NCBI GenBank assembly: GCA_951230915.1
Contig: OX579633.1
Span: 7,352,145-7,416,144, forward strand
DNA: 64,000 bases
Origin: Antitrichia curtipendula
Lineage: Eukaryota; Streptophyta; Bryopsida; Hypnales; Leucodontaceae
Reading direction: 5' to 3'
The translations under genes and the position numbers were made by a program. The notes under the pieces were generated by a model. That model did no database searches. It was not told where the DNA came from and was given only the letters and a program-made list of their open reading frames with translations. Each line of letters opens with the position of its first letter. Within the stretch, counting starts at the first letter, position 1. Shown here piece after piece: positions 6,957 to 42,276 of the stretch.

Positions 6957-9900
6957 CTAAGGTTGGTAATCACTATCTCCTTTCACTTCAGTCCTGCTAC
7001 TATGACATGTTCTATCCCATCTGGAATCATTGTTGCTGGATGAATTTTGCATATTATCTGATGAAGATTGTACAATCTTCCCTCCTTCTTCTTGTACTTG
7101 TTTTGATGCGCCTAATCTCACTGGTCTACCTAACATATGGTCCCTTTTGGCTTTTAGTATAAACTTTCCAATACCTCCTTTAAGGTCGTGGACTGGCTTC
7201 ACTTTTCGCTTGATTAGAGGCAAACTTGCATCAAGGGGGATTCTACCTACATTTTATTTTTTCAATGGAGAGATTGCAATAGGTTCCATTATTCTTTTCT
7301 TCTTAGCTTTTTTGCACTCCTTCACCGTGGGTGGACTTCCTTCCAAACCTTCTAGAATATTTGTCTTCTTTGCGGACAAAGCTTCCACTGTACGGTTTAA
7401 AGATTTGATCGGAGAATGCATTGCATGGCCAGAAAATCGACGAAGCATAGACTCCAATGTTTCTACATCATCGTTGTCTGATGAAACGGATGGATTTGGA
7501 TTGGCACCAATGTACAATTCTTTCAAATTGTTCAAATGTTGTTCTTTAAACCGTGAGTCTCCAGGACCATTCAAAGTTGTGCTACGGCTTGTATATAGTG
7601 CATGTCAAGGACCGGTAAGTGGTGGTAATTGAGGATCTTGCACTAGTTGCTTCATGTCTTTGGCGTTGCGGTTTGGCATTGGGCACATGGACTCCAATAC
7701 ATGTGGATCTTGACTTCCCTCTATTTGAGGTGCTTGGATATTTTGAATGCCTAAAAGTCCAATATTTTCACTTGCCAATGCCCCTAGTAGTTCAATACTT
7801 TGGTTGACCACATTTGTGTGGGACTTCACCCCGCACTCTTTCATGTCATTGTGTTGATCATTTTCTTCCGCTCCTACCGTTGTCATGGATGGACACTCGG
7901 GAATTTGAATCACTTCATCCATTTGGGAAGTTTCATCACCTATAAACATTTTCTCATCTTCCTCCGTTATCTTTGCATGAATATTTTTCCTATTTGCTAG
8001 AATGTTTTCACTACGCAACAACCCGGTTCCATCTAAGTATTTAGCTATGGAAGGTCCACCTTCATCATATTCACAGTCATCCTCATTCAACGGAAACTTG
8101 TAAGGGTCTTCACAATCATCTCCGATGTCTCCATCATAACAAGGTGGGCTTCGAAGCGGTTCATCATCAAAATTGCGGATGCCGTGGTCATCTTCATCGT
8201 TTATGAGGGGATCAACTTCTTCACCGGATTCACCACCCTCATCTTCCAATGAAGACAAGGCCGAATCCTCCGACTTGAGGTTCTCGTCGTACCATTTCTT
8301 CTTGTCGTTTTTCTTTGATCCATCGAGGACTTTGGAATTGGTATACACATATATCAAATCTTGTGCTCTTTGTGGCTTCAACTTGTTCTGATATTTGTTG
8401 TGAACAAAAGAGTAGCTACTCCAATTTCGTTCACATGAAGACAATGATACCGGTTGGGCCAAAATCCTCTTGACAATTGGAGCAATGAGCTTCCCGCACG
8501 CGCCCTCAAAATCCCACCAAGCATATGCCGACAATTGTTGTTCACCCGGATCCAACATGTTGTGGAACGGAGGTTCCCTATGGCGGAAGGCTATAAATTC
8601 CTTCACAACCTTCACGTATTCTAAAGGTGTATATATTTGCATTAGAACACGCTTGCATGCAGCCATGGCATCGGTGTTGTCGGCTAGTTTTTTGTCTTCA
8701 AGAAGGTAGGGATTCAAAAGTGCTCCTACATAATGTAAATCAGTCTTCACCATATCACATCGTTTGTAGAACAACTTCACCAACGGGATGGCTTTGTCCA
8801 AAGCCAAACAAAAAGGCTCTTTGTCTAAAGCGAGGACGTGCTTCTCTAGATTCCTCATAATATGTAACACCTTGCCCATACATGGTGTCTTCCCATCCAA
8901 ATCATGAAGAGCATTGACAATTGGAGCTGTCACATCTTCAAAATTTTGACAAAATGCCCACTTAGAAATTAGAATGGTCTTCTTCATCCATTCGGATTCT
9001 AAACGAGTTTTGAATTTTCGGGAGTGCTTTCTAGCATATTCCTCCCATTGCAGATCCGTCACAGTTTGTTGCAATTGTGCTTTCACCTTGAGCATACGTG
9101 CAACCATGTTGTAATTCGAGGCAAATCTTGTTTCTACCGCCAACAACAAGTTGTACTATGTCAAATATTTCCGAAGTATCGCAAGCGGCATGTGCCTCTT
9201 CTTGAAGAATTTGACTATCTTTCGGGAATCTTTCACGACGTCATCAATCCATTGTTCGTTTGCCCAATCTTTTAGCAACAAATTCAAGGCATGCACCACG
9301 CAACCTTGGAAAAAAATGTGGGGATAGGTAGTAGATACCAAACTCCATGCTGCTGAATTTACAGCCGCATTATCTGTACTCACCTGCACTACGTTTGCAG
9401 GGCCCACTTGTTCTATGAAACTCTCTAATATAGAAGTCAAATATGGAGCATCTTTAATTTTCCTAGTTGTATCCACTGATTCTAGGAATTGCTCACCTGC
9501 GGATGACACAAGGATGGCATTTATCAATGGCCGATTCAAAACCGAGGTCCACCCATCAATAGACAATGTGGCTCCAAACTTCCTAATATTGGTTTCACTC
9601 CACTTACAGAGATTGACCTCCAAGTCTACCTTTGCTTGATTATGCAATTTATGACGTAGGTCATAATATGATGGTAGGCTATAAGGTTGGTGAAACTCTG
9701 TCATTTTCTTCATTGCTTTTTTAAAGGTTGGATTTCAGGCTACATCAAATGGTATGTTTGCCGCATAAAAAAAATTGGCCCACATTGCATTCAAAATGCG
9801 TTTATTTGCTTCTTCAAATCCCTCTACTAGCCTACTCTGTCTTTGAGGCCTACTGCTTGATGTCCGTTGAGTTCTATGTCCACCTGATGCTTTTGTACTT

Positions 9901-25810: not shown

Positions 25811-26382
25811 GTCACATTGTTGCGAACACAACTGAATGGAAAGTTGAAGGATCTTGTGGGAGACTATTACCACATCGATAGCACGTTGGAGATTGTGGCG
25901 CAAGTTCCAGTGTCCAATGCTAAAGGAAGGAAGAAGAAATCAGAGATAACACGAGTTGTTTTGTCATCAAAAAACTCTTTGTTTGTTGACATTGAAGTTG
26001 TGCAGAGAACTATGGTAAAGCTATATGGTTTCACCACCGAAGGTCAATACTTCATCAGGTTCCCAATTTCTATGAAAGGATGCTAGATGTGTCTTCTGCT
26101 CTTATTGACTGGTATACTTCATGCAGTCTACTGAAACGTTACAGTGTTCAAAACGTGTGCAGAAGTTGGAGACAAGCCGTTGATTTTTGTGTTGAAGATG
26201 GACGAAGCAGAGATTTTGCATGGCAGAAAGTTTGAAAGGGTTAGTTTGACCCTTATGAATCGTGCTTTGGACACCAACATACAAAAGACCGATGATAGGT
26301 ATTTCTCAGTTCAATCAAAAATCAAAATATGGCCCATTGCATGCTTTGAGGTTGCCAAGGAGTCAAATGAAGTCCTCCAATG

Positions 26383-26720
26383 GGGGACGATGCTATTTTG
26401 CGTGCGGTGAGCATAGAGCATAGAGCGGTGAGCGTAGTTTTGCGAGCCTAGGGTCCCCTAAAATGGGCATATTCTATAAAAGTAAAAGTAGAAGATAGAT
26501 TCTAAATTAAACATAAAATAAAAATAAAAGTAGTTGTACAAAAGTAGGGCCCTATAGCCGTGAGGTTAGTTGAATGTGAGAAACAATTGACCACGGTAAT
26601 AGGCGGCACAGGGTGATCAAATGGCAAACAGAGACGGTTTATTTTCGGAATTATGTAGGTGCCCTATGGCCGTGGACACCCTATGGCCATTGTTACCCTA
26701 AGGCCATGGGAAGAGTTCCT
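26383..26720. repeat. left terminal and subterminal region of the 14.1-kb element
   Basis: Begins with the terminal inverted repeat, then GTGAGCATAGAGCATAGAGC and GTGAGCGTAG motifs. Further in lies a cluster of CCCTATAGCCGTG and CCCTATGGCCGTGG variants (about 26550-26705). Arrays like these usually serve as transposase-binding sites. The right end has the matching motifs in reverse. Confidence 0.65.
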
Positions 26721-27552
26721 TAAAATAAAGTAAGTTACCTTTGGATATAATCACACCATTAACAAAAATAGAACATTTCATATTCTTTAGAAAACTGCAA
26801 ACATGAGTGTGCCTCCAATAGTTGAAGGAGAATTTTGGAAATTATTGTAGAAATCCATATTGGAACCAGAAAACACTTGGGGGGGCTTCAACAATTGTGT
26901 ATTTTTTTGGATTCCCAATTTTGAAACAAAAACAACTTCGTCGGCTAACCAATTTTATATTTTTTTGGATTCCCAGTTAGGAACAAGCAATCACTTTGAG
27001 GGCATCAACATTTGTGTATTTTCTGGGATTTGCACTTTTGAAGTAGAAATAAGTTTAGGCCTTTAGGGAGTGTGTCTCCAACAGTTGAAGAAAAAAATGG
27101 AAACTATCGAGGATTTATTCACGTCATAGAGATGAAAAAAATGTACTCAAAAAACATCCATTCATGAAAATTATAATCTGAATGCATTCAACAATGATAG
27201 AGCAAACAGACTGCAACAAGTTTATGAATAAATTGATTAATAAACGGGCTACGAATGAAATCATGGAGACTTCGCATGTAGAACTTCCTCAAATATAGGA
27301 GGGTTCGAGGTTTAGTGTTTAATATGTCTAATTATTCCCCAGTCATTGAGAGTGTAGTCCAAGCCACAAATACTTTGGAGAATTGATGTATTTAAGCTGA
27401 TCAATTAGACAACCACATTCAAATACACAACGAATGGATGTTAAAATAAACCATTCACTGATATATACACACTTTGAACATTACAAATGAAAGCACAAGA
27501 TGAATGCGTGTGAAAATAATTATAACAATAAATCCGGTAGACAATGAAATTA
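26721..27552. other. non-coding stretch inside the left end of the 14.1-kb element
   Basis: AT-rich, about 830 bases. A loose duplication is visible: GGATTCCCAATTTTGAA (about 26917) and GGATTCCCAGTTAGGAA (about 26968) sit in similar contexts with TATTTTTTTGGATTCCCA. No gene was recognised; it is probably the 3' flank of the ParB/methyltransferase gene. Confidence 0.4.
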
Positions 27553-27852
27553 TCAAAATGAGAAAGTGGAAAAACTGCCAGATGATACTGGTCTTGGTTC
27601 CATATCAACATCGGCCTCGTCATCAATAAAAAGACGGACGGGTCTACCAGAACATCTACCAGTGGACGTGGAGGTCAGAGAAGATCCTGCCGCCTACAAT
27701 ACAACAATCTCTACGTCCCACGGCGCCATAAAATAGTCTTTGTCCGAAGAATGTAGTAAGGAAATCACTTTGAGACAAACGAGTTTATGTTAGTGAACTG
27801 ATCACAAACAGGAAAATGAAACAAATTAGAATCAAGTAGAAAACGTACTTAC

Positions 27853-28417
27853 TGAATCTGTTCTTTTTCGTGATATGCCGAATAGGGACGTCCAGTGCAA
27901 TCTCTGCTGGAGTCTTGGAAGCTTCAAGTGGAATTGGAGGTATAGCTTCAACCTGGTCCAAGTGCTCCAACTTAGCCCGAAAGATCTCGATATCGTCTTC
28001 GAGGGCCACAATGTGTCGTCCAATAGCTTTGCAAGCTCGAACAGAGTTACCTGAATTCGGATGAAGCAATTTAAATTTAGAAATGACTCGAAAAATGAGA
28101 GGAAAGACTATTTACCAGGAGAAGCATCACGATAGAAAAGACTACTCACCAAGAGAAGCGGATGCATCCAGGATGACGGATCCAGGCATCGTAAAAGCCT
28201 CGATCAACATTTGAAGGAAAACTGGGTCCTTCTCACGGGCGCCTCTCTACAGAACAGATCCATTCATGGATTGAGTGACCACCGTAGTGAAATTGAACAA
28301 GACATCAGTTTCAGCAACTCCCATTCCGAACTCCACAAGTGCTTGGTCGGTCGCAATCATGAATTCGCTAGCATCCATGGCACGGTGAATGAAGAGCTGA
28401 ATACGGAATCCTCTGCT
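27853..28417 (-). CDS. SAM-binding region exons of the methyltransferase domain (younger copy)
   Basis: Exons 28417-28150 and 28050-27853. The first has GAREKDPVFLQMLIEAFTMP followed by GSVILDASASLG; the second opens GNSVRACKAIGRHIVALEDD. This follows closely the K-P-x-x-L-L-x-x-x-I ... G-D-x-V-L-D-x-F-x-G-S-G-T ... A-x-x-x-G-R-x-x-I-G-I-E-x-D series of beta-class amino DNA methyltransferases. The loop reads SASLG rather than FAGSG. A TAG (CAG to TAG) precedes the GAREKD block. Confidence 0.6.
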
Positions 28418-28508
28418 CTGAAAATGGACATTACAGTGGAATTGAATTAGAACCAGGAGAAACTGTAGAATGCAGTGAAATCAAGTATTGATTTGAAACA
28501 GTAATTAC

Positions 28509-28856
28509 CTTATAAGCTGAATTGTAAAACGACGCAGAGGGTAGGTCATTAATTCCCTACCACTCTTGATGCAGACCGAAGTTGTAGCCATGTACATAGG
28601 ACAGCACATCAGTTCGGATCTTTGGAACATCTGGCACAAACAACAGAATTGCACCCGCACCGTGAAGAAAGTGTTCCGCAAACTCAAAAAGACTTTCAGT
28701 GTGTTGCTCCGAGTACGCATTCCAGGCAGGGACATCGTCGGGGTTTGCCGAAATGGACGGAACCCAGAGGCCATCCTTGATATCGCCATGAATCAAATCA
28801 AAGCCACTGTGCGGACAAGACTTATTCAAAGCCTTTTCACCGACTTCTTCCTTGAC
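28509..28856 (-). CDS. methyltransferase motif IV-like exon (younger copy)
   Basis: Begins after ATCTCCAG and ends at a GTAATT donor. FDLIHGDIKDGLW sits where D-P-P-Y/W is expected and reads GDIK, so the catalytic motif is degenerate, differently from the older copy (DCPK). A second core strand, GAGAILLFV, follows about 50 residues later, then YVHGYNFGLHQEW. A TAG after HQEW replaces what looks like a second Trp codon (TGG to TAG). Confidence 0.5.
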
Positions 28857-30544
28857 CTGGAGATTACAGAAGGTGGAATTGATTAATTCATACTTAACAG
28901 AAGTACCATAGAATCCCATCTGCCTCTAAACGCAAAGGAATTAGTGAAAGAAATGTGGTGAGTGAAAAGACAAACCTTGAGAACAAACTTGTTCACCGTG
29001 TCAAGACAAATGTGCACCTCCGGAAGAGCCTCCATAATCTGAGAGAGGCTGGTATTCTGTACACAGACACTGGATTTGATTGAAGATCCTGACGCCGAAG
29101 CCGATACCCGAGAGGCGACTGCGCTCTTGAGCTTGTGCATTACAAACGACAGCGGGCTAAAGAGGCCAAGAAGAGAAGGAACATGCGGATTACGAGCACC
29201 ACTAAGAGTGAGCTGCGAAGGCCTGGGCAGAACAACCTCCATCGCCTCCATTTCCGTATCTTCACCAGGGGCTGGAAGCGTAGTCTTCTTGGCACTCCCC
29301 AAAGCCATAACATCACTCTCCAGTGCGGCCGCAGCATCTGAGGCAGCCTTCTTCTTCGCTTCTTCCTCTGCTTTCCTCTTTGAGCCCCTTGTCTTCTTAG
29401 CAAGCGCCTCTTTACGCGGAGTATCGTGAACCGTCTTCAGCCCAGCCAAATCGGGTTGCACCGTGTTCCTCAAATCAATCTCAAAGTGCGAAGGATTGTT
29501 CAAGGGGCAGTCAATATACCACCCACAGACTTCTCAGTGCTCTTTCTTCCACTTTCTCGCGATCTCATCCGATATCATACAATTCTCGGCACGTTTGTCC
29601 AAGTAGCTTGGGAAGAATGACGGGGTCTTTGATGTGGCATTCCTTGCATACAACACAAACTTGAAATACCGGTATAGAACCCTCGCGACAGCCTTGTCAA
29701 GACCGACCTGAAACTCAGGAGGATGATTCTTGTGAACTCCTTTGCCATCGAAGACATGGGAGAATGTTGTATCCCAAAGTTGGATACGATTTTGCTCCAC
29801 ATAATCAGCAATGCAAGGAATTGGACTTTCCCCAGGCGGTTGATAATTGATTGTGACATCCAGCTCAGAAAGAGTCGCATCGAACAATTCCTGCACCGCA
29901 CTTGCCAACTACAATAGGGAATTACTGACAACTCTTAGACGACAGCATCAAGCCAATGAAAATAACAGAACATGGAGACACTGTACCTGAGCCCACCAAG
30001 TGGCCTTGTGAAGCCAGTCGGGAAATGCATGATCCAGGAACTTGCTTTTTGGGAACCTCATTGCTTCTCGAAGCGAGGCAGGTTTGTTCCACCGCTCCAG
30101 CCATTTGACCTTCACTGCCGCATCCATGACCGAGGTTGAAAGATACCACAACTTCTCTTGGGACATCTTCGGGTCGTCTTCTCGGTTCTCATAATGAATC
30201 CTAACTTGTTCCAAGAACTGCGGAGTTTGCCTTGGGTCAGCAATGGGGAGTTGTTTCTTCACATCAAATGACGTATCCTTCTTCACTTTATCCACGGCCT
30301 TCCCAATGACATCGTACAGCTTCCCCGTAGTCCATTCACTTGATTTCTTCGGATACTTTTCCTTGAATCTCTCCTGGTGGCGTAAGCTACTGCCTCACCC
30401 AACTCTTGCTGCAAGACAACGGACAAGGCGACAGAAAGAGTAAATTGTGGAGAAATATAAGAATTATGTTGCAAAACATTGAAATCCTCAACCCGTTTAT
30501 CGCATTGGTAGTACGCAGCAGAAGGCAGCAAGTGCACTGGATTT

Positions 30545-30625
30545 GGAGTGCTGACATCGGCAACCCCTTCAGTGGTGTCCCAGACAGCTGAACATATTGA
30601 ACCACCGAGAGGGGTGCCGATATCG
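30545..30625. repeat. small hairpin with GTGCCGATATCGGCAC core, in an intron
   Basis: The left arm GGAGTGCTGACATCGGCAAC and right arm ending GTGCCGATATCGGCACTCC are inverted copies about 26 bases long with a loop of about 30-50 bases. It sits in an intron of the ParB/methyltransferase gene. The same palindromic core occurs at 31840-32215 and near 37700-37735. Confidence 0.65.
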
Positions 30626-31009
30626 GCACTCCATTTTAAGAGTCTCACGCCAAGAAAAAGACGTCACCAAATAGCGAAAAAGTCTCAAATTATCAAACAT
30701 GATAAAGGGCCGTACCTGATAGAGAACGCTTATGAGCCCGTTAAGCGTTAACGTGTACCATGTTCAGGTCTTCGACCTCTGCTTCTTTTCGGCGTCAGCT
30801 AGCTCTTTAGTGGTAACTAGATTCTCATAATAGGACAATGGCTGGCCAGCTATACTCTGAAGCCGGTAGAGTTTGTGTACAAGGTTTAACTTCACATGGC
30901 AAGTCTGGTTTCTCATGTTTCAGTAGTTGAGAGTAAGAACACAAGAGCACACATACTTCACAGTAAACGAGTAAGAGAAAAGGGCCGAGCTCGTGGATTA
31001 CCAGTTCAC

Positions 31010-31614
31010 TTGGTGCAACGCGGTGAGGAGTGGCCCAATCTGGCCTTCCACCTCCAGAACAATTGATTCAACCGCATAATGCCATGACGGGTCGTCTCCA
31101 TGGTCTCTGTTAATTATTGGCAGCCAGGCCGCAAGCCGATGGTTGCCGTCCCAGACGAAGAACATCTTTCCCGAGAATTGCTTCCAGGCGTCTTCCTTCT
31201 GAAGCTCCTTCTCGAAATTCTCATTTGCCTCAACCCATAACGGACTCCAACTAGCCAAATCCTTGTCTGTCACGTCCAGCGTTTTGCCCTCGTTGTTCTG
31301 CAAGGCGACATAGAAAACATCGTGCCCGTCCATGTATCCTGTACTTACAAAATGTGCACCCAGTGCCATCACATCGTTCTTCAGGTAGGGTCGAACAGCA
31401 GCTAGAGCTTTCACTTGACAGAGCGGGATGTTGAGCTTAGACTTCTCCCTTGGCGTGAACCGCAGCCTGTCCAAGACAACGTTTGTATTCACCGACTCCC
31501 GAACAACCATCTTGTCCATTTCCCTCCCAAGCTCCTCGGCGGTCATCTCAATTGACGCTTTTTCTGCTTCATCAGTATGTTGGGATGTCTCGACATCCTC
31601 GTCACCCACTTCCT
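31010..31614 (-). CDS. ParB-like domain exon (younger copy)
   Basis: Open throughout. After an acidic N-terminal part comes NIPLCQVKALAAVRPYL (the usual I-P-x-x-x-L start of ParB domains), then MALGAHFVSTGYMDGHDVFY (counterpart of L-x-x-S-I-x-x-x-G) and MFFVWDGNHRLAAWLPI (counterpart of the G-x-H-R-x-x-A loop), ending in DPSWHYAVESIVLEV. The spacing matches a ParB/Srx-type fold of about 130 residues. In bacteria and phages such domains are often fused to or encoded beside amino DNA methyltransferases, which supports the reading. No catalytic activity can be claimed. Confidence 0.6.
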
Positions 31615-31839
31615 CTGCGAAATAGTTACCGTTAGCCAAAGGCGAAGAAACAACATAATCTCACAGAACCAGGTTTAGGATTCGCACCCGACTCGTGAAT
31701 TTATGGCTGCGATGAGGATTGCAGCCTATCTTGTACCGACTCCCTTCCAGGATCGGTCATGTCCGCCGATTGTGCTGCACGAAGGACAAAAAAACAGCGA
31801 ATTTGAGAAGTGCTCGCACTGTGAAGCCCCCATCGAGAC

Positions 31840-32215
31840 AATGCAGACGTCGGCACCACCTCCACGAGGTTGCTTTGTGAAGCTGAAGCACCCCCTTGGA
31901 GGTGGTGCCGATGTCGGCACCACCTCCAAGGGGGTGCTTCGGCTTCATAAAGCACCCCTTTGGAGGCGGTGCCGTCATCGGCACCGTCACCAAGGAGGTG
32001 CTGTAGATTTGCGAAGCCCCCCCATGGAGGTGGTGCCAACATCGGCACTGCCCCCATGGAGGCGCTTTGATTTCAGAAGCCCCTTCATGGGGGCAATGCC
32101 AATGTCGGCACTGCCCCCATGGGGGGGCTTTGCAAATCCGCAGCCCCGCCTTGGAGGTGGTGCCGGTGATGGCACTGCCTCCAAGGGGGGGCTTCAAAAG
32201 AAAGAAGCGCCCTCT
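31840..32215. repeat. tandem array of ~60-bp palindromes, in an intron
   Basis: Five to six consecutive units, each a near-perfect inverted repeat. One unit, at about 31888-31943, reads GAAGCACCCCCTTGGAGGTG, then GTGCCGATGTCGGCAC, then the complement of the first arm. Other units replace CTTGG by CATGG or TTTGG symmetrically. The array lies between exons 32284 and 31614 of the ParB/methyltransferase gene. Long open frames over it on both strands are artefacts of the GC-rich repeat. Confidence 0.85.
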
Positions 32216-32689
32216 CGAATACAAATGCCATTCATTGCACTTATGAGTGTTTACAAAACATGCACCAAGCTTGTGAATTTTACCTCCTGTAGTGTCCGTT
32301 CCTTCCTCCTCGTTGCGCTTTTTCTGCCACTCCAGTTCCTCTTTCTCTGTGCTGGTTGGTGACGGATTTGCGCCTTCACTATCCATCTTGGCAGAACCTG
32401 CTGGAATCCAACATTCTCGTGAGGCTTCAGTGAATTTATGAAAGTGAATGGTGGAACGGACAGCAAAGTAATCAAGAAAATAATGAATCGTAACTACAAA
32501 CTTGACTGAATAGTATGAAATGAGCCAAATGTATCGCCTTGGTTGACTCCTTCAATAAAATCTAAGGCTTGCGAATGAAGATTGAAATCCCTAAAGTGAA
32601 TTTCTAGCAAATCGGACAAAATTCTCGCGAGCATCCTAAACACGAACTGGAGAAACCTAAATCTTTCGATTATCCCAACTCGGGATGTT

Positions 32690-33250
32690 GCGGAGTATTA
32701 GAATCTGGTGAGCTTCCTGACCAGTATCCAAGCGTTTATAAGTACCCGATCTGAGAGCAAGGGAGTATTTATCCTTGGCGTGTGTCAAAGCATGAAACGG
32801 GACCGGATCCGATAGCAATAGAGTACCTGTCCCTGGCTTGTATCCAAGCAAAAAGAAGTAACGGATCCGAGGGCAAAAGAGTACCAAGACCTGGCGTGTG
32901 TAAAAGCATAATGAAGTACTGGATCCGAGAGCAAGAGAGTACCGAGACCCTGGCGTGTTTCCAAGCTTGAACAAGTTGCGGAGATAAGAGTTAAAGACTA
33001 CTGATCCCTAGCTTGTGTCCAAGCACTAACATTTGCGAGATCCGAGAGCTAAAGAATTCCAAGACTCTGGGGTGTGTCCAAGCATTAACAGTACCGGATC
33101 CGAGAGCAAAAGACTACTGAAACCCTACCGGTGTTCAAAGCATGAACAACTTCCAGACCCGAGAGCTAAGGAGTCCCGATCCCTGGCGTGTGTCCAAGCA
33201 TAAACCTGTGCGGCGTCCAAGAGCAAAAGAGTACCGAGGTTGACAACAAA
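32690..33250. repeat. minisatellite of ~60-bp units, in the first intron
   Basis: About nine degenerate units of the pattern CCTGGCGTGTGTCCAAGCAT, a short variable stretch, CGGATCCGAGAGCAAAAGAG and TACCGAGAC. It lies in the 1.6-kb first intron (34028-32398) of the ParB/methyltransferase gene. Confidence 0.8.
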
Positions 33251-34356
33251 GACAAGTACCGAAACCCTTGTGTGTGTTGCCAAAACAAATCCCGAACCCA
33301 ATTGTCAACGCCATCCGAGAATCGCATACCCTGGCCGACTAGTTCAACCTGCCGCTAAACAAAACCCTGATGCCTTGCTCAGATCGTGGCTCCTGGACAG
33401 ATACAAGTTGTTTCATAAACGGTGTTGCTTCCATAGGAACCAGCCATGTGAAATCACTCCGGAAAACAAACCAAAAATTTATTCCCACTAGTTTTCGTTT
33501 TTTCTTTCCTTGTTGATATTTTCACTGGAAGCGTGTCTATCATGAATTAATTCAATTCTCCGTGCGTGTCTATGCGCAATTGTTTATGAAGCCCCGCAAA
33601 TAACATTCTTGCCTTTTTGGTTAGTGCTTACGAGCCAATAAGACTAGGATTGGCGAACTCTAGAATAAATTCCGACGTCTCCCGATAGACAAGAAACTCA
33701 ACTCCACTTAATTCACAATCCCACTAATTACTCAACTCCTGAAACTTCCAATGTCATAGATCACTCTCTCGGCCTCTCTTGTACTAGCATTTTGAATTAG
33801 AAGTTACTTCTCCGGCAACCATCTTTAGCATTTGAGATCCTACAAAGCTGTCAAATATTGCTAAATGTCCTTACTACTTCAAATATGACGCGGGTTGTCT
33901 TCCCGAAGTGGTAAACCCTCTAGCAACTCACGCTTGCAATGCGTTTGCAGAAGATGCTTGTGATAACACCTTAAAAATCACCAACAATGATCAGAGGAAA
34001 CCAACCAAAAAGTTAATCGTCACAATACCTTGCTCTTTAGTGCCCTTTCTACTCGATCGCTTGCCACGATCCCCGGCACACTCATCAGGAGAGCTTCCAC
34101 TTTTGCTGCTAGCTGGGGACGACTTCTCTGGAAGTTCTGCCCCCATCGTCTCCTCTGCAATTTCTATAAGGCTAGCTGAAGGAAGACCCTGCAATTCGCT
34201 ATCTAATGGTTCTCCGCTACCAAATTGAAGGACTCTAACTGTCTCTCCTACATCAGCTATGCGACAATGTGACCGCAACTCCCTCATAATCCGAGACTTC
34301 TTCAAACGCTTCTGGTCTGTAAAATACAAAGCTTGTCGTTTTCGTCTCTTCAGCAT

Positions 34357-35534
34357 TCTGAAGGACGTAGGAATTGATTGTCAGCTCCACTCCCCGCAAT
34401 ACTTATTACCCTAGTTCTATATATGTATCATAATACCTATGTTGGTATTATTTCAAGTGCTTGCGCCATAATGACTTAGTTCTACAGCCCAACAGGATGT
34501 TAGGAATCATGTTGGAAACACCAATGGCATGAAGCCATTCTCACGGGCCGATGTCCACTGATGACAGTTTGGTATATTCAAACCCGTAGCGCCGTCATGA
34601 CTAATTTATTATGAAAATGAATATCGTAAAGGCAGTTGCCGTTCTTAAGAGTTGGTCCCGCCACCAATTCGCGGTTTGAATATTCTGACACTTCAATTGA
34701 CGGTTGTCTGGAGGGAGGTCAAATTATGGAAGATTTACTAGTTAAGAGCCTACTTGCTTCTAATTACGTGTGCAGTAGTTCTAGCTGTTCATAGACTAAT
34801 TGCCTTTTTAATAATAATTTCAAGGACTACTCTTATAACCACTCATACTTCGAGAATCTAGTCTAATGAGACACTCTGTTGTTTGTGCAGGATCTATAGA
34901 TATGCCGCCGGTTCCAACTAGGGTTGTCCCTGTCACGTCCTGTCAGTCCGTCAGGATGTCCGGACGGACGTCAGGATTCAACCCCGGCGTCCGTCAGGAT
35001 CCAAAAAAAAAAAAAAAAATTTTTTTTTTTTTTTTTGTAGACAGTCTGTCCGTCCTGTGGACGGCTGGTCCGTCCCTGTGGATGGCCGGCCATCCAGGTC
35101 AACGGCTGGCCGTCCAGGTCAACGGACGGGCCGTCCTCGAAAAAAAAAAAAAAAAAAAAAAAAATTTTGATCCTGACGCAATTCTGACGCATCAGGACGC
35201 GTCCGGACTGACGCCGACGGACATCCGCACGTGAAAACCCCACGTCACGTCTGGATAGACAACCCTGGTTCCAACTGATTGCAGATCCAACAATGTCCTT
35301 TGTAACTAGGAACGGATACTATTTGAATGGAACGTGTACCACCAAATTCGGTTCAATAATACAATGCCTTCTTGTACTACTAAATGGTGGCATGTCTTTG
35401 GTTATTAAATGAAATGACTAAATTGATGTAGTCCTCAAGCACTACGTTTCTTATTCAAGGAATTCGGTAGCTACATTTTTCATTTCCTTGTTCTGCATGT
35501 CTGTTGTATTCCCTCCTTCAGATTTAGGATTGCC
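34357..35534. promoter_or_regulatory. divergent intergenic region between methyltransferase and transposase genes
   Basis: About 1.2 kb between the ATG at 34356 (-) and the ATG at 35535 (+). It should hold the promoters of both genes of the 14.1-kb element, perhaps a shared one. A 349-bp hAT-type MITE (34919-35267) has inserted into it. No convincing TATA box was singled out. Confidence 0.4.
34919..35267. mobile_element. hAT-type MITE, copy 1 (349 bp)
   Basis: The termini are TAGGGTTGTC and GACAACCCTG, flanked by a perfect 8-bp duplication GTTCCAAC (34911-34918 and 35268-35275). The interior is built of GTCCG/GGACGG repeats and long A and T runs. YAGGGTTG ends with an 8-bp duplication are typical of hAT-derived MITEs. 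A close relative lies at 38636-38943 and a remnant at 840-1205. Frames across it are not genes. Confidence 0.92.
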
Positions 35535-37699
35535 ATGTCTACTTTGGAGGATGCCATCCTCAATACGGTTCTAATTCGAGGAAATGGATTGACAGTGCCG
35601 ATTTCTTTTGGCGTAGAGGAGGATGGCCTCGCTAGAGTTATAGGTTCTCGTTTGGCTTCTAGGTTTCAGATTGTGGAAGGTACTTTGCATTTAGATTTGG
35701 ACATTATTGACCCAGTCTCGAGGCAAGTCACTCACATTGTAGCGCAGATGTCGTGTGACTCTCTTAACGGTGAGGTCTGGTCTTTGTCACCTGGAAACTA
35801 CCACGTGTATGGAATGAAGGTCAATGCAGTCGATTCTTCAGCGAGACGTTCTTCCACAACATCAGTAGTCACTCCAATGCTTCGGAATGTTAAATTAGAG
35901 CTTGGCGATGGTCCAGTCCTGCTTCTTAGTGATGATTGTGATAGTGATTGCATCCGTTCAAAGCTAGACTTCACTACTCCCAACCTTATAGGACCCACAC
36001 TCGTACATGCACCTTCTGTTCTTGAGTCTGGTTCCTCGCGTCACTTAGGTCCATCCACTTCCAAGCCTCCCTTGCCACATGCTGAAAGTATCGTCTCCTG
36101 CCTACGCCAGTTGAATACAACCAAGGGCGCTAGGTCAATTCTTAGCAAGTTAGATTACAATTCAATTACGATAGAGAAGGTAGAATATCTGCCCCCAGAT
36201 TTTAATGGTGATATTATCTTTGAGCTTCCTCCGATGCGGAAGTATCTGCTATCCACCAAGGATGGACAACTGCATGGCATGGATAAAAAGGATGACGGAC
36301 ACGCTTGGACTCGAACAGCTACTACGCATATTCAATCAGCATCTCAACTTTCTTTCAGATTGTCCAATTGCCTGGGACATCTACGATGCACGAATACCGC
36401 TTGTGAATATATAAGTCGGCCCAACCGTTTGTCTACGTCAAATGAAACTGAGTAGGACGGTCTTGCTTCCTCTGCCTTCGTTCCCGGATCTGATCCCCCT
36501 TCTAATTCTACCGTCGTCTGTGCCCTCTGCCTTGTTAAGCCTACTTGCCTAGATAGTTGCCTTGCTAAGATATATTACGTTTACGGCCCCAATCACATGA
36601 CCCATGCTTGTATTCATCTCGGATTCCATTCACATCCTGTGAAACAAGGAAATTATCGAGAGTCAGCTGCCAAACTTCGTAGTCTTATTGGTGAACATGT
36701 AGAAAAGATTCCATCAGCAACAAACTCTGCCATTGTCCTTGAGGCGAGTAATTAGGAGTACCTTGGCGAACTACTTTTATGTCCGGAAGGTGTGTCTCAA
36801 AAGACTCTAGCAATAGAAGAATTGATCCCTATCCTGGACAAATTTAAGCAAATGTCATCTCCCAGTATCAGAAACGAGGTAACCACTTTTCGATACCTCC
36901 GTCGTTTTGGAGTCCTTGATAGCATCACCAAACTGAGAGGGGTTAGCAACTGGGCCTTCATCCAGGAGAACAGGTTTCTGGGACAAGGCGCGGACTCTGA
37001 CAAGGTCTTCATTTTTAAGATGGCGGAGTTGGGCTTTGGAAGTGGAGTCGACTTGGTGAGGCGTATGCAACCCAGAGGTGATTTGGAAAACGCGTGGATG
37101 ATGTTCGACCATGTCAAACGGGTGAAGTCTTGGACCACAATGGCTTGTCACGTGTATGACTCCACATACTGCCGTGTCATGACGATTGCTGTTTGCGACA
37201 TGCAATCTGAAGATGTGGCAGCTCAACAAGTGTTTTGGAAAAATCTGAATGTTGTGTCTGCTAGGCATAATGTTACTAATCCAAATTTCAAAGGGTTCAT
37301 GGCTGACAGTGCACAGGCAAACTGGAATGCGGTACGTATTGTGTACGATTCTGGTGACTCAGCAATCCATATGATCAACCGCGAGAGGACTTGCCTTTTT
37401 CATTGGATGCAATCACTGGAGAAACACACCAAGGCAGATATCAGAGCAGACCTACAGGATCAACATCGACGCCTTGGTAAACAATACAAGAACTTGGTAT
37501 CATTGGAAGAAGCTCAAAGTAGGTATTTGGCCATCCGTGCATGGTGGTTATCATCTGGCGCTTCAACTGATGAAGGACTTCCAAGACTCGACTTATGGCT
37601 AGCATTCTGGCATTTTTGTTACCGTCAGTGGGGAGGATTCATGGAATTGGTAAGTGCGGCCTTCACTCGTTTCTTCTCTTGCTTTTGCACACTGTGCAC

Positions 37700-37735
37700 T
37701 CAGGATGCCGATATCGGCACTACTCCTCAATAGTG
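37700..37735. repeat. ATGCCGATATCGGCAC hairpin in the transposase intron
   Basis: The intron 37650-37812 contains ATGCCGATATCGGCACTA followed by CTCCTCAATAGTGC. The same palindromic core is found in introns of the neighbouring ParB/methyltransferase gene (30545-30625 and 31840-32215). Confidence 0.55.
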
Positions 37736-38635
37736 CTAGTTCTTTAGTCTCTTCCTTTCTATTCACCAAATGCTTTGTGTTCATATTCCTTGTTTCAACA
37801 CTCATCATGTAGGATTGCGTGCAGGACCTGTCACCAACCAAATTGGCAGAGATGCCCTCATGTAATTTGGCGGAGTCAATTCACAACAAGTGGCTGCAAC
37901 AGTCTGGCAAAAGAGGCAGTGACTTGTATGTTGCTTATGTCGATGACATGGTCAGAGCATTCATGCAGGTTGTTGCCTACTATCAATTCCTAAAGGGTAA
38001 AAAGCCAAGTATTAGTCTGTAAAAAGAAGAACTTCGTCTTCGTGCTGTTCAACGCACTGCTCAACGATCCGGAAATTCAAAGGTTCTTCATGCCGCTTTT
38101 GCCAATATGCCTGGTGCTGACGTCTTCTACACACGTGATCCTCATCTAGAAGGGGAAGAAATTTTTATTTCCTTGAAGAGAAAGGCAGATCTTCTTCCGG
38201 GATCAGAATTCGACTCGCACCGCCCTGACAAGATTAGTGTCTCCCGCCCAAGACGCAAGGCCCAACGGCTCAATCCGGAGATTGTTGATCTCACTGCTAA
38301 GGAACCTCAGTCAGAATTCGAACTTCGACCAGGAGAAGGCACTATCCCCCACTGAAGTCACCATTGACTCATTCTCCAATACAGCATGTCAAATCAGTTC
38401 AGGAGACCGTTTGCAATGAGCGGCAGTGGCATATTGCAAGACTCCCGAGGACGTCTGCGAAAGCTTGCTTTGCTCTGCAGGCCAAGACTAAAAAGAAATG
38501 CGTGGCAAGGATTGTGTAGGACAATCGAAGTACACATGCCCCAACTTACACCGGCTTGATGGACAATTACAAGAAGGTCAGTTTGGAAAATATGCAGTTT
38601 TTTTCTGCAATGATGACATCAATCGCTGTGTCAAT

Positions 38636-38943
38636 CAGGGTTGTCCCCGTCATGTCATGTCCGTCCGTCAGGATGTCCGGATGGACGTCAGGATTCAACC
38701 CCGGCGTCCGTCAGGATAAAAAAAAAAAAAAAAATTTGTGGACGGCTGGTCGTCCCTATCGAGGGCAGGCCGTCCCTGTGGACGGATAGGCCATCCAGGT
38801 CGACGGACAGGCCGTCCTCGAAAAAAAAAAAAAAAAAAAATTTTGATCCTGACGCAATTTTGGCGCGTCAGGACGCATCCGGACTGACGTTGACGGACAT
38901 CCGGACGTGAAAACCCCACATCACGTCCAGATAGACAACCCTA
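38636..38943. mobile_element. hAT-type MITE, copy 2 (308 bp)
   Basis: The termini are CAGGGTTGTC and GACAACCCTA, with a perfect 8-bp duplication GTGTCAAT at 38628-38635 and 38944-38951. It resembles the MITE at 34919-35267 over its whole length; copy 1 has an extra T-run segment. It is inserted in the coding sequence of the SWIM transposase between the DDE core and the SWIM finger, which alone would inactivate the gene. Confidence 0.93.
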
Positions 38944-39587
38944 GTGTCAATGGAACTCAGCGGAAATGGGTAGTTTCTAAACCTATCGTTCCTGATGTTT
39001 GGCCTGTTAAAATGGGCACAAACTTGACAAGGAAAGAGATTCTAACTCTCGAAAATGCCGGATTTAACTTCATGGAGCGCGTGGAGCTATCCCCTCGAAA
39101 GTTGTTTGCAGAAGGGATTTTCGTAAACCTCAGCGACTATCCTTCTCCTCCAAATCCTTCAGATCACCCCACCAAGCGATACGGGAAAAACATTCGAAGG
39201 AACCCTACCGCTCCAACAACGAAGCACCACAACAACTGCGCCTCTGCTTTGTCTATTGTTGGGGAGATCTGCAGTATTCTGATGGTTCCTCCTCCAGCTC
39301 TCGACTGCATTGTTACATTAGAGTCTAGAAATATTTCTAAGGTCTCTAGGTATTTGCTGACTATTGGTCAATTCCCAAGCTGCGACTGCCCATCATTCAA
39401 AGACATGTCACAAAAGTCACTTGGCAAGCGAGGAGCATGGACGTATTGTAAGCACTTGTACTACATATTCGTCATAGTTTGTAAGTTAGATCTCGAGGTA
39501 CATATCTTTACGCACGCTCCTAGTTTCAACTGGAATGACGTAAAACAGGTTCTACAGATTCTGCTACTTAAACACTACGGTGCATAG

Positions 39588-40481
39588 TGAGTATGAATAG
39601 TCCTATTATCACAATGTGATCCTCTCCCCTACTTTAAAGAGAAGGCGGTGAGACTTGAAGGACCACCGCCAGAGTTTCTGCACAAGGAGTTGTTGTTTTA
39701 AACTTGCTCCATAATCAAATCTAGTAGAAGTTCTTGGAGTATTTCCAACTAATCATGTAAGTGCATGACATGAATTTCTACCCTATTCATTAAATGTCTG
39801 TCTCATATCTAAGCCTTCCTCGTTTTCTGAATCCCTAAACACATTTCCGCTGTTGCGGCGGACTACGTCTATCTTCCAAGTGTTTCGGAATCATCCTAAA
39901 CAACAAACCCACCATGTCTTCGCACCGTAAATTGTTTGCTTCTGCCTTCTAAACCCTACCCATAAGCTAAACCACACAAAAATCTGCTCGTCTACCACCA
40001 CGGTAGGTGCTCTTCCTCACTCTTTCGCGCCCATTCTCCATCATGTACTCTCCCTAACTCTTGCAATCTCCTAAACAATATCTCCTCACTCCCACTCGGC
40101 TTCCCTTCTACTCTTCTTCTTGCTTCAATCCAGAACCATAGATATCATATCTTCTCACCTCTTACAATCCTTATCAGCACGGTTATAGGACCTTGTTTCC
40201 GATACTTGCGTCTGTCATCTTCTTGATGGTATGTGTACTGACAAAATAAAACCCCTCTGCACTACATTCCTGCAATTCATTCCACGGTCATAGGTCTGTC
40301 ATTATTAAAGATTTTAAAAGTATTCACCCTTAAAATGTTCTATGACTTTTACTTTATCGCTCGCATTCCAAAAATTAACTACCTTTTAACGCTCTATGCT
40401 CGCAAATCTACGCTCTATGCTCGCAAATCTAAGCTCTACGCTCTATGCTCGCATCTCTACGCACGCAAAATAGCAATCCCC
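39588..40481. repeat. right subterminal and terminal region of the 14.1-kb element
   Basis: Non-coding after the transposase stop. Contains CACGGTTATAGG and CCACGGTCATAGG (about 40180 and 40284), then at 40390-40460 repeated CGCTCTATGCTCGCAAATCT units, and ends in CGCACGCAAAATAGCAATCCCC, the right terminal inverted repeat. Confidence 0.65.
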
Positions 40482-42276
40482 CTCCAGTGGGTGTTCCAAC
40501 AAACGCAATTTCCTACACTCATCAAAGCACAAGATGAGGGCCAGCTGCTATGTGTTGAGGGTGTAGGAAACTTTAGAGTAGAATGGCATTTGTCAACAGA
40601 TATGAAGACAATCAAAATGTTTGTATGGGCTGAAGCATGGAGCCAATGCCGTTCATTCCTGCATTTACTGTAACCAATAGCGGACCAAATCAGTGGTGGG
40701 AACAATGGCAGAAGCTACTTCGGAGGCTAGGAGAAGGAAACATACATGGCATGGAGGTCTATTTGCTGGCAATGTCACATCTAAACCAATGTCCATTGAT
40801 GGAGAATCACGATGGAAACCAATTCTACCGATACCTCTTGAGAGGGTACATATTTGCACATTACATGCCTTAACGAGGATGATTTAGAAGATTCTTCACT
40901 TGCACTTCATGTTCATTTGGAACATGGAGAATGAGGCCCGTCAACAAGTTGCCATAGAAAATATGGAGAAGACGTTGTCAGCAGCTGGACTTCACGGTGG
41001 CAACGTCCGCATAATGAAGGACACAACGCTCAGTGGCGTTTCCAACAGTATTCCCATCAAACCCTCCTTTAGTGGCGTTATTGCAGCTAGGATGTTCCAA
41101 CTATCAACTTGGTCAAGGCAAGATCGAGTATGGAAGGACGTCTTGCGCTTAGAAAACAACACACTCAATCAAGGTAGACAATATTTGGACAGGGTAGAAA
41201 TGTGGAAGGCGTTGGAAACAATCTTTACCTATTTGGTGGGCCTATCCTTGAATCAAGAGCAAATCGACACCTTCAAGGGGAAAATTGAGAGTTGGGGGCG
41301 CCTTTACGTGAAGTGCTTCGGGGAAGACCATGTCACTCATTATATGGTAAGTTTAGGGTTTAGGGACGTTGCCAACATCCTTGCTAGTGCTACCAAAATG
41401 ATGTATGTCCTATTTGGAAAGTGCCTAAGTAACGTGTTTAGGGTGTGATGGATTTGGATGTTGTGCGAGTATGTGTGACTAATTTATTTTATTATTGTCT
41501 TGCAGCATAACCTTGTGCGGCATGGTCCTTGGTATGTGGAAACATACGGGAGCCTAGCTGTTTGGAACAACCAAGGTATGGAAAAATCACATCATGCAGC
41601 TAAGTCTGCTAATCAGCATCACACTCAACATGGTGGCACTAAAGATAAAACAAGTGCCATCGTTCAGCAGTACCAACATTGGTACAGAAATGTACAACAC
41701 AAATTTGCAAAGCAAAAACGAGTGCGGGACGCATGCAACATGAGAGACGTAGAAGCTGATGCTAACATGGCGGCAATGCTGCACAAGAAGAGGATGGCCT
41801 ATAATGCTTCGAATGCGATGGATGCAGCTAGGAGGTGGAGGGAAGATAGAAAGCGAGTAGGCAAAGCTTGGGTGAGAGCACTTGAAACTGAGGTTGTGGA
41901 AGATAGTGCCACTGATGTGGCGAACCTAAACACGAATGATGTTGGCAACGTGGAGAGTTCTGACGAATAACGACGCGATTTACCAACGATTTAGGGACCT
42001 GGCTGTATTGCTAGACTTACTTAAAACCAACATACATTTGTATAGGCACGTAAGAGCAACAGAAAAGAAGATACATCAGTGGCATTTACAATAAAGTTTG
42101 GGTTTTAGGTGCTTAAGACTTCACATGTTCACAACTTTGCATGACCCAAAAATGGATACCAAGTTCTTAGCAACTACATGTACAAGTAGAACACAAGTAC
42201 AACTGTCAAGTACTATGTACTAATCCTTGCCATACAGTGCTATCTGGAAATAATCATCCCGTGTCTCTTCCAAAAT

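Follow-up and report, generated by a model that had tools for sequence, protein, structure and literature searches.

The closest parallel in logic to the element described here appears to be the VANDAL system of Arabidopsis, in which the VANC21 protein is reported to bind the motif YAGTATTAY in tandem repeats, both inside VANC21 and VANB21 introns and in the region upstream of VANA21 (PMC5735166). A second point of reference is bacterial ParB, which is described as loading at 16-bp parS palindromes and then spreading (PMC8494293). We analyzed a window of 64,000 nucleotides of Antitrichia curtipendula (contig OX579633.1, positions 7,352,145 to 7,416,144 of the forward strand), along with the 400-Mb genome of 303 contigs from which it comes; coordinates below are positions in the window. 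Positions 26385-40481, with first bases GGACGATGCTATTTTGCGTGCG and last bases CGCACGCAAAATAGCAATCCCC, are a two-gene DNA transposon with a transposase gene on the plus strand and, divergent from it, a second gene on the minus strand, whose product is here called the partner. What seems new is the combination, in a DNA transposon of two genes, of motif arrays with a protein apparently unrelated to the known one.

Like the VANDAL elements as reported in PMC5735166 and PMC10398659, this element encodes a second protein beside its transposase; in both cases short motifs, many of them in tandem, are found in the accessory-gene introns and upstream of the transposase gene, and in both the motifs differ among families and target specificity diverges, here by prediction. 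The first-pass annotation, made from the letters of the window, had already proposed the VANC parallel; its logic is strengthened by motif arrays that are specific to each family and lie in introns and in the stretch separating the two genes, while an anti-silencing function would still be drawn from the analogy. However, the protein here combines a ParB domain with a methyltransferase-like domain and is set beside VANC by motif logic, not by sequence comparison, and the motifs of this element, unlike the one reported for VANC21, are palindromic, each half containing a CG. With bacterial ParB and parS, as described, the partner shares the ParB N-domain fold and palindromic sites of about 16 bp, but it belongs to a eukaryotic transposon, its sites are family-specific and intronic, and it is known from sequence alone. 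The methyltransferase half gives a profile match to CcrM (6pbd; E 2e-6) with the same motif order; unlike in CcrM, the catalytic motif looks lost, the gene is split by introns, and the domain is joined to a ParB-fold domain. Retrotransposons reported to carry captured cytosine methyltransferases (PMC5890265) are likewise eukaryotic mobile elements with a DNA-methyltransferase gene, but here the element is a DNA transposon and the methyltransferase is of another class and probably inactive. The N4CMT of bdelloids, which reportedly gives a working 4mC mark (PMC8885841), is also a bacterial-type methyltransferase acquired by a eukaryote, whereas the gene here is a transposon gene and inactive-looking. 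Among the papers listed by a search of the published literature, none described such an element or joined ParB with a Mutator-like element, which does not establish absence from print; the matches for ParB with such elements were bacterial or archaeal by title.

Conservation of the divergent gene pair

The genome was searched with the ParB-like exon of the partner (150 scored matches of 1267 candidates) and with the core exon of the transposase (132 scored of 1487 candidates; one further 44-residue fragment was dropped). At 66% identity or more, 56 of 86 ParB matches had a transposase in divergent orientation on the other strand within 20 kb, at distances of 3.0-10.8 kb; at 76% identity or more, 57 of 67 transposase matches had a divergent partner within the same distance, and rare co-occurrence of the two genes was thus not found. 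There were no same-strand and no convergent pairs of ParB and transposase matches within 20 kb. Random placement gave a mean of 0.5 pairs and a maximum of 3 in 500 trials. Among the remaining listed ParB matches, the 48 at 50-65% identity gave one pair and the 16 below 50% none, and the 65 listed transposase matches at 69-75% also gave none; pairs are few among these remoter matches because each list holds the best matches only. Just two genes in divergent order, as the first-pass annotation had described for the window element, were confirmed there; this gene pair, in the same arrangement, was also seen in one member each of three families from these remoter groups, f61, t73 and p41, read over 20 kb (3/3), and the pairing is kept in families down to 54% identity in the transposase core. 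These data show that two divergent genes are kept together in several diverged families.

Family-specific palindromes

A repeat search without a preset motif was done in the four families read at length. Each has a recurrent palindrome of its own: GTGCCGATATCGGCAC in the window family, AGCCGTCAACGGCT in f61, GTCTCGGTACCGAGAC in t73, and TCCTCGG(TG/CA)CCGAGGA in p41. The relevant features of the window element are as follows.

30549..30628: two palindromes in a partner intron, at 30549 (one mismatch) and 30615; GTGCCGATATCGGCAC at 30614-30629
31842..32110: in the intron preceding the ParB exon, a 64-nt tandem array with five palindrome sites (31842, 31906, 31970, 32034 and 32097), each with at most one mismatch
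32716..33238: intergenic tandem repeats of 58 nt, in which the family palindrome was not found
37706..37719: TGCCGATATCGGCA, a palindrome within the transposase intron

Both CpGs of the palindrome at 37706-37719 are retained in 7 of 7 aligned copies. With two mismatches allowed, 8 palindrome sites are present in the window element and none in the remaining 49.9 kb of the window. Under an order-1 Markov null (200 resamples per family), a palindrome of 6+2+6 form occurred twice in 0 to 0.5% of resamples and three times in none. All four full elements show the pattern of recurrent palindromes, and none of the 6 control stretches, each 12-13 kb long, does so. The length of the 58-nt repeat region varies among copies.

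For three further families the presence of such a palindrome was predicted before the 3-3.5 kb 5' to the ParB exon were read. In this region GCCGA-YR-TCGGC occurs three times in the 72% family, TCCTCGT-CC-ACGAGGA three times in the 45% family, and CTCGG-CC-CCGAG ten times in the 39% family. The prediction thus held in 3 of 3 families, while none of 21 control windows, also 3.5 kb in length, had any such palindrome three times. All seven families share a half-site of 5 nt with CG at bases three and four, around a 2-nt centre. Their motif arrays are located in noncoding parts of the element in 7 of 7 cases, four of them outside modelled coding exons and three read only 5' to the ParB exon. In the four modelled families, the sites are in partner introns, between the genes or 5' to the partner gene, many in tandem arrays, and the same transposase intron carries sites in the window family and in t73.

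The exact 16-mer of the window family is found 28 times in the genome, where about 0.1 occurrences are expected by base count; its backward control is found 0 times. Each of the 28 sites has a listed ParB or transposase match of the group no farther than 5.1 kb away, and the sites lie in the partner intron 3' to the ParB exon, the intron 5' to it, or the transposase intron. The t73 16-mer has 20 genomic sites, and at 13 of them a listed t73-type transposase follows 2.6-3.0 kb downstream.

The partner protein

Comparison shows that the partner has a ParB-fold domain and, after it, a DNA-methyltransferase domain of the beta class (N6/N4), in agreement with the first reading of this gene as ParB/DNA-methyltransferase-like: the N-terminal part compares with the ParB N-domain fold, and Pfam N6_N4_Mtase was matched by the partners of all four families (best E 3e-9). 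The genes of these elements have GT-AG introns, and the partner exons of the window copy, all on the minus strand, are as follows.

32284..32386, minus: first exon in this copy; start codon placed by eye
31002..31614, minus: ParB-fold exon; DGNHR motif at 31124-31150
30716..30920, minus: short exon; 5' boundary approximate; in-frame stop; position as in f61 exon 2
29987..30408, minus: helical middle exon
28976..29908, minus: long exon with linker; in-frame stop in the window copy
28509..28856, minus: methyltransferase-like exon; motif IV position FDLIHGDIKDG at 28770-28802 (by eye); in-frame stop
28150..28417, minus: methyltransferase-like exon; motif I position VILDASASL at 28151-28177; in-frame stop
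27853..28050, minus: methyltransferase-like exon with GRHIVALEDD; 3' end of the gene uncertain

By sequence, the ParB part had no match in Pfam, in the PDB profile search or in PHROGs. A first structure model of the partner was poor (pLDDT 62.6), with best matches to sulfiredoxins that were not significant (E 0.8). A search with the full-length partner scored 7988 candidates, none at E 0.001 or less; the ParB exon used singly found 40 relatives, and in viral contigs 0 of 19 pattern matches were confirmed.

The catalytic motif of N6/N4 DNA methyltransferases is (D/N/S)PP(Y/F/W). At the DPPY position, placed by eye, the four families have EYPD, DIKD, DVPE or DVPD; none of the four keeps an unaltered glycine-rich motif I. 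Judged from these residues, the partner methyltransferase is very probably a pseudoenzyme.

Between window and f61 copies, the ParB exon shows differences of 0.389, 0.253 and 0.636 at the three codon positions, as under purifying selection; for selection along the partner gene, copies of one family are too similar to tell. Most listed f61-like ParB matches are without a stop, and several copies, including that of the window, have stops. Because in-frame stops are found in both of its genes, the window copy looks non-autonomous.

Two different introns of the f61 partner gene contain a long repeat, hairpin-like and about 300 nt in length (L029:3740-4060 and L029:5560-5900); it may be a small transposon favouring this gene.

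Domain trees and half-sites

Quartets were derived from p-distances with 1000 bootstraps for the four full families (L029/L030, L031/L032, L033/L034 and the window element). The transposase core and the SWIM part each group the window family with t73 (1000/1000 in both), and the ParB domain groups it with f61 (1000/1000). The quartet tree differs among all three parts, transposase, ParB and methyltransferase, which suggests that families have exchanged domains, with the caveat that saturation or uneven rates could mislead so simple a test. The half-sites, GCCG[A/T] in the window family and f61 and CTCGG in t73 and p41, split as the ParB domain does and not as the transposase does.

Possible roles of the partner

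The best explanation overall, to which we would give about an even chance, is a two-gene transposon whose partner binds its own palindromes and guards its own family. Through its ParB half, the partner probably binds the palindromes of its family as a dimer, by analogy with bacterial ParB at parS; such a dimer would find its sites in the introns of both genes and between the genes. From these palindromes the partner would cover the element, perhaps by ParB-like spreading, and would so protect its own family, and no other, from host silencing, in the way VANC protects VANDAL elements; this second step is possible, at somewhat less than an even chance. Loading and spreading of the ParB type would suit a protein that must cover several kb starting at a small number of sites. 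Read jointly, the parts would make up a eukaryotic system of the ParB/parS type, in which a ParB-pseudomethyltransferase loads on family-specific CG palindromes in introns and promoters, spreads as a clamp and shields its own family only, in which protein and sites diverge together, and in which domain exchange gives new specificities; we regard this composite as possible, at somewhat less than an even chance.

Several results weigh against this explanation. The window copy is broken in both genes. Placement of motif IV was by eye, and the CcrM alignment starts only after it. In an exact 5+2+5 test, the window region 30500-34000 was alone in having no palindrome three times, because its sites are degenerate. 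Seven of the 20 t73 16-mer sites have no transposase within 15 kb among the best 132 of 1487. CpG retention, tried as a sign of low methylation, gave no clear signal: 24 of 28 and 14 of 14 in the motifs is not clearly higher than 0.891 and 0.898 elsewhere. The methyltransferase half gives a third tree, window with p41 (989/1000). Finally, the agreement of half-site and ParB domain is one split among four families, with a chance of 1 in 3, and for that reason is a hint only.

The main rival is an autoregulator of the KorB kind, which would act on operator palindromes between the genes and in introns, tuning transposase expression with no role in silencing. Many of the sites are intronic, however, and the tandem arrays reach ten copies, more than one operator needs, so we consider this unlikely. 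Alternatively, the partner could be a transposition accessory for end pairing or integration, with the palindromes as internal binding sites of a transpososome. mudrB in maize is said to be such an accessory, and the retention of the gene beside transposases as distant as 54% would fit this role, but the palindromes are internal and intronic rather than at the element ends, and we think the accessory role distinctly improbable. A working DNA methyltransferase that marks the DNA of the element would agree with the clear beta-class homology in all four families; this reading was set aside as very unlikely because the catalytic motif looks altered in every one of them, as does motif I (motif IV by eye). 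Capture of the partner as passenger DNA, in the manner of Pack-MULEs and with no function for the element, is hardly credible in spite of the stops in several copies, because the gene recurs in the same order across families, four of them read at length, the codon-position differences of its ParB exon are those of purifying selection, and most listed f61-like matches are free of stops.

If the partner does guard its own family from its palindromes, sequence-specific self-protection of transposons, known from Arabidopsis VANC, would have evolved once more, out of quite different components: a partition protein of bacterial type and a dead methylase. The seven protein/site pairs of this one genome would then form a dated series in which changes of DNA-binding specificity could be followed, and there would be a way for ParB-type DNA clamps to act in eukaryotic chromatin. 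Every ParB domain with its predicted palindrome is a testable pair.

Element limits and copies

The ends and target duplication of the window element are as follows.

26375..26384: target duplication, left copy, 10 bp, CTCCAATGGG
26385..26451, plus: left terminal inverted repeat; same end in the other copies read
40415..40481, minus: right terminal inverted repeat
40482..40491: target duplication, right copy, CTCCAGTGGG, one mismatch to the left copy

The inverted-repeat arms 26391-26451 and 40415-40475 are 82% complementary. As a genome query, the left end of 139 nt had 40 scored matches among 93 candidates, 86-100% identical, a number far beyond chance. From this search, 10 further genomic copies were taken with that of the window. 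Both ends are present in 8 of these 11, with element lengths of 12.8-17.6 kb, and in 3 of 11 the right end was not found within 20 kb. In most cases the copies are 92-96% identical to the window element and colinear with it, except for insertions and repeat arrays. Under one common boundary, all eight two-ended copies have a 10-bp duplication (5 exact, 3 with one mismatch); automatic best lengths range from 10 to 12 because of shared G's at the boundary. The element is thus a real multi-copy DNA transposon with fixed ends and 10-bp duplications. The inverted-repeat ends of the first-pass annotation are borne out, with the limits refined to 26385-40481: the ends coincide in 8 of 8 two-ended copies, and no copy with other ends was found among them. 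Its target duplication is likewise present, but is 10 bp in length and not 8-9 bp. A size of 14.1 kb holds for the window copy, in part because of two nested insertions.

Transposase gene

The transposase features of the window copy are as follows.

35535..37649, plus: exon 1; in-frame stops at 36453-36455 and 36753-36755
37158-37160 (D), 37305-37307 (D) and 37509-37511 (E, putative), plus: DDE-like positions in exon 1
37826..39587, plus: exon 2, interrupted by the insertion 38636-38943; 5' boundary approximate
39381-39455, plus: SWIM-type C-x-C...C-x-H in exon 2

The order of the DDE-like and C..H motifs was established by eye, as was the presence of C-x-C...C-x-H in all four families read at length. 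None of 10 transposase proteins was matched by Pfam MULE, with E values up to 10 allowed, and Pfam SWIM matched 1 of 10, below the cut-off (E 1.5). A single-exon search found 163 relatives, with no precomputed Pfam domain among the 120 listed, and a transposase profile had no match in the PDB. Target duplications of Mutator-like elements are reported as 8-11 bp (PMC6446971), and the 10-bp duplication falls within this range in 8 of 8 window-family copies; that of the f61 copy is 10 bp and exact. No convincing duplication was found in the p41 copy, and the ends of the t73 element were not found. An automatic call of TGACAAACAT in p41 was rejected because its ends do not match the inverted repeats. 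The proposed Mutator-like SWIM transposase therefore fits by motif order, C-x-C...C-x-H and duplication length but not by Pfam MULE; the element appears to be Mutator-like, a class assignment unsettled by profile.

Nested insertions and the interrupted locus

Two insertions of the same kind are nested in the window copy.

34920..35266: between the two genes, from the alignment of copies
38636..38943: inside transposase exon 2

Both are missing from 8 of the 10 further copies, that is, from all that align across those places. They have poly-A/T tracts and repeated GGCCGTCC-type motifs, and direct repeats D4 and D5 are about 90% identical.

Removal of the element had been thought to restore a host reading frame. 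When the flanks are joined with a single duplication, an open frame of 143 amino acids (aa) on the plus strand does cross the junction, but this is modest evidence because shorter frames, of 66 aa (plus) and 98 aa (minus), cross it too. The gene-like sequence that the element interrupts extends over 25992-41970, with open frames continuing downstream of the 143-aa frame; two of its flanking frames had no match in Pfam. Elsewhere in the window, the minus strand at 7605-9734 carries the remains of a hAT-type transposase (DUF659, E 6e-33; hAT dimerisation domain, E 9e-9).

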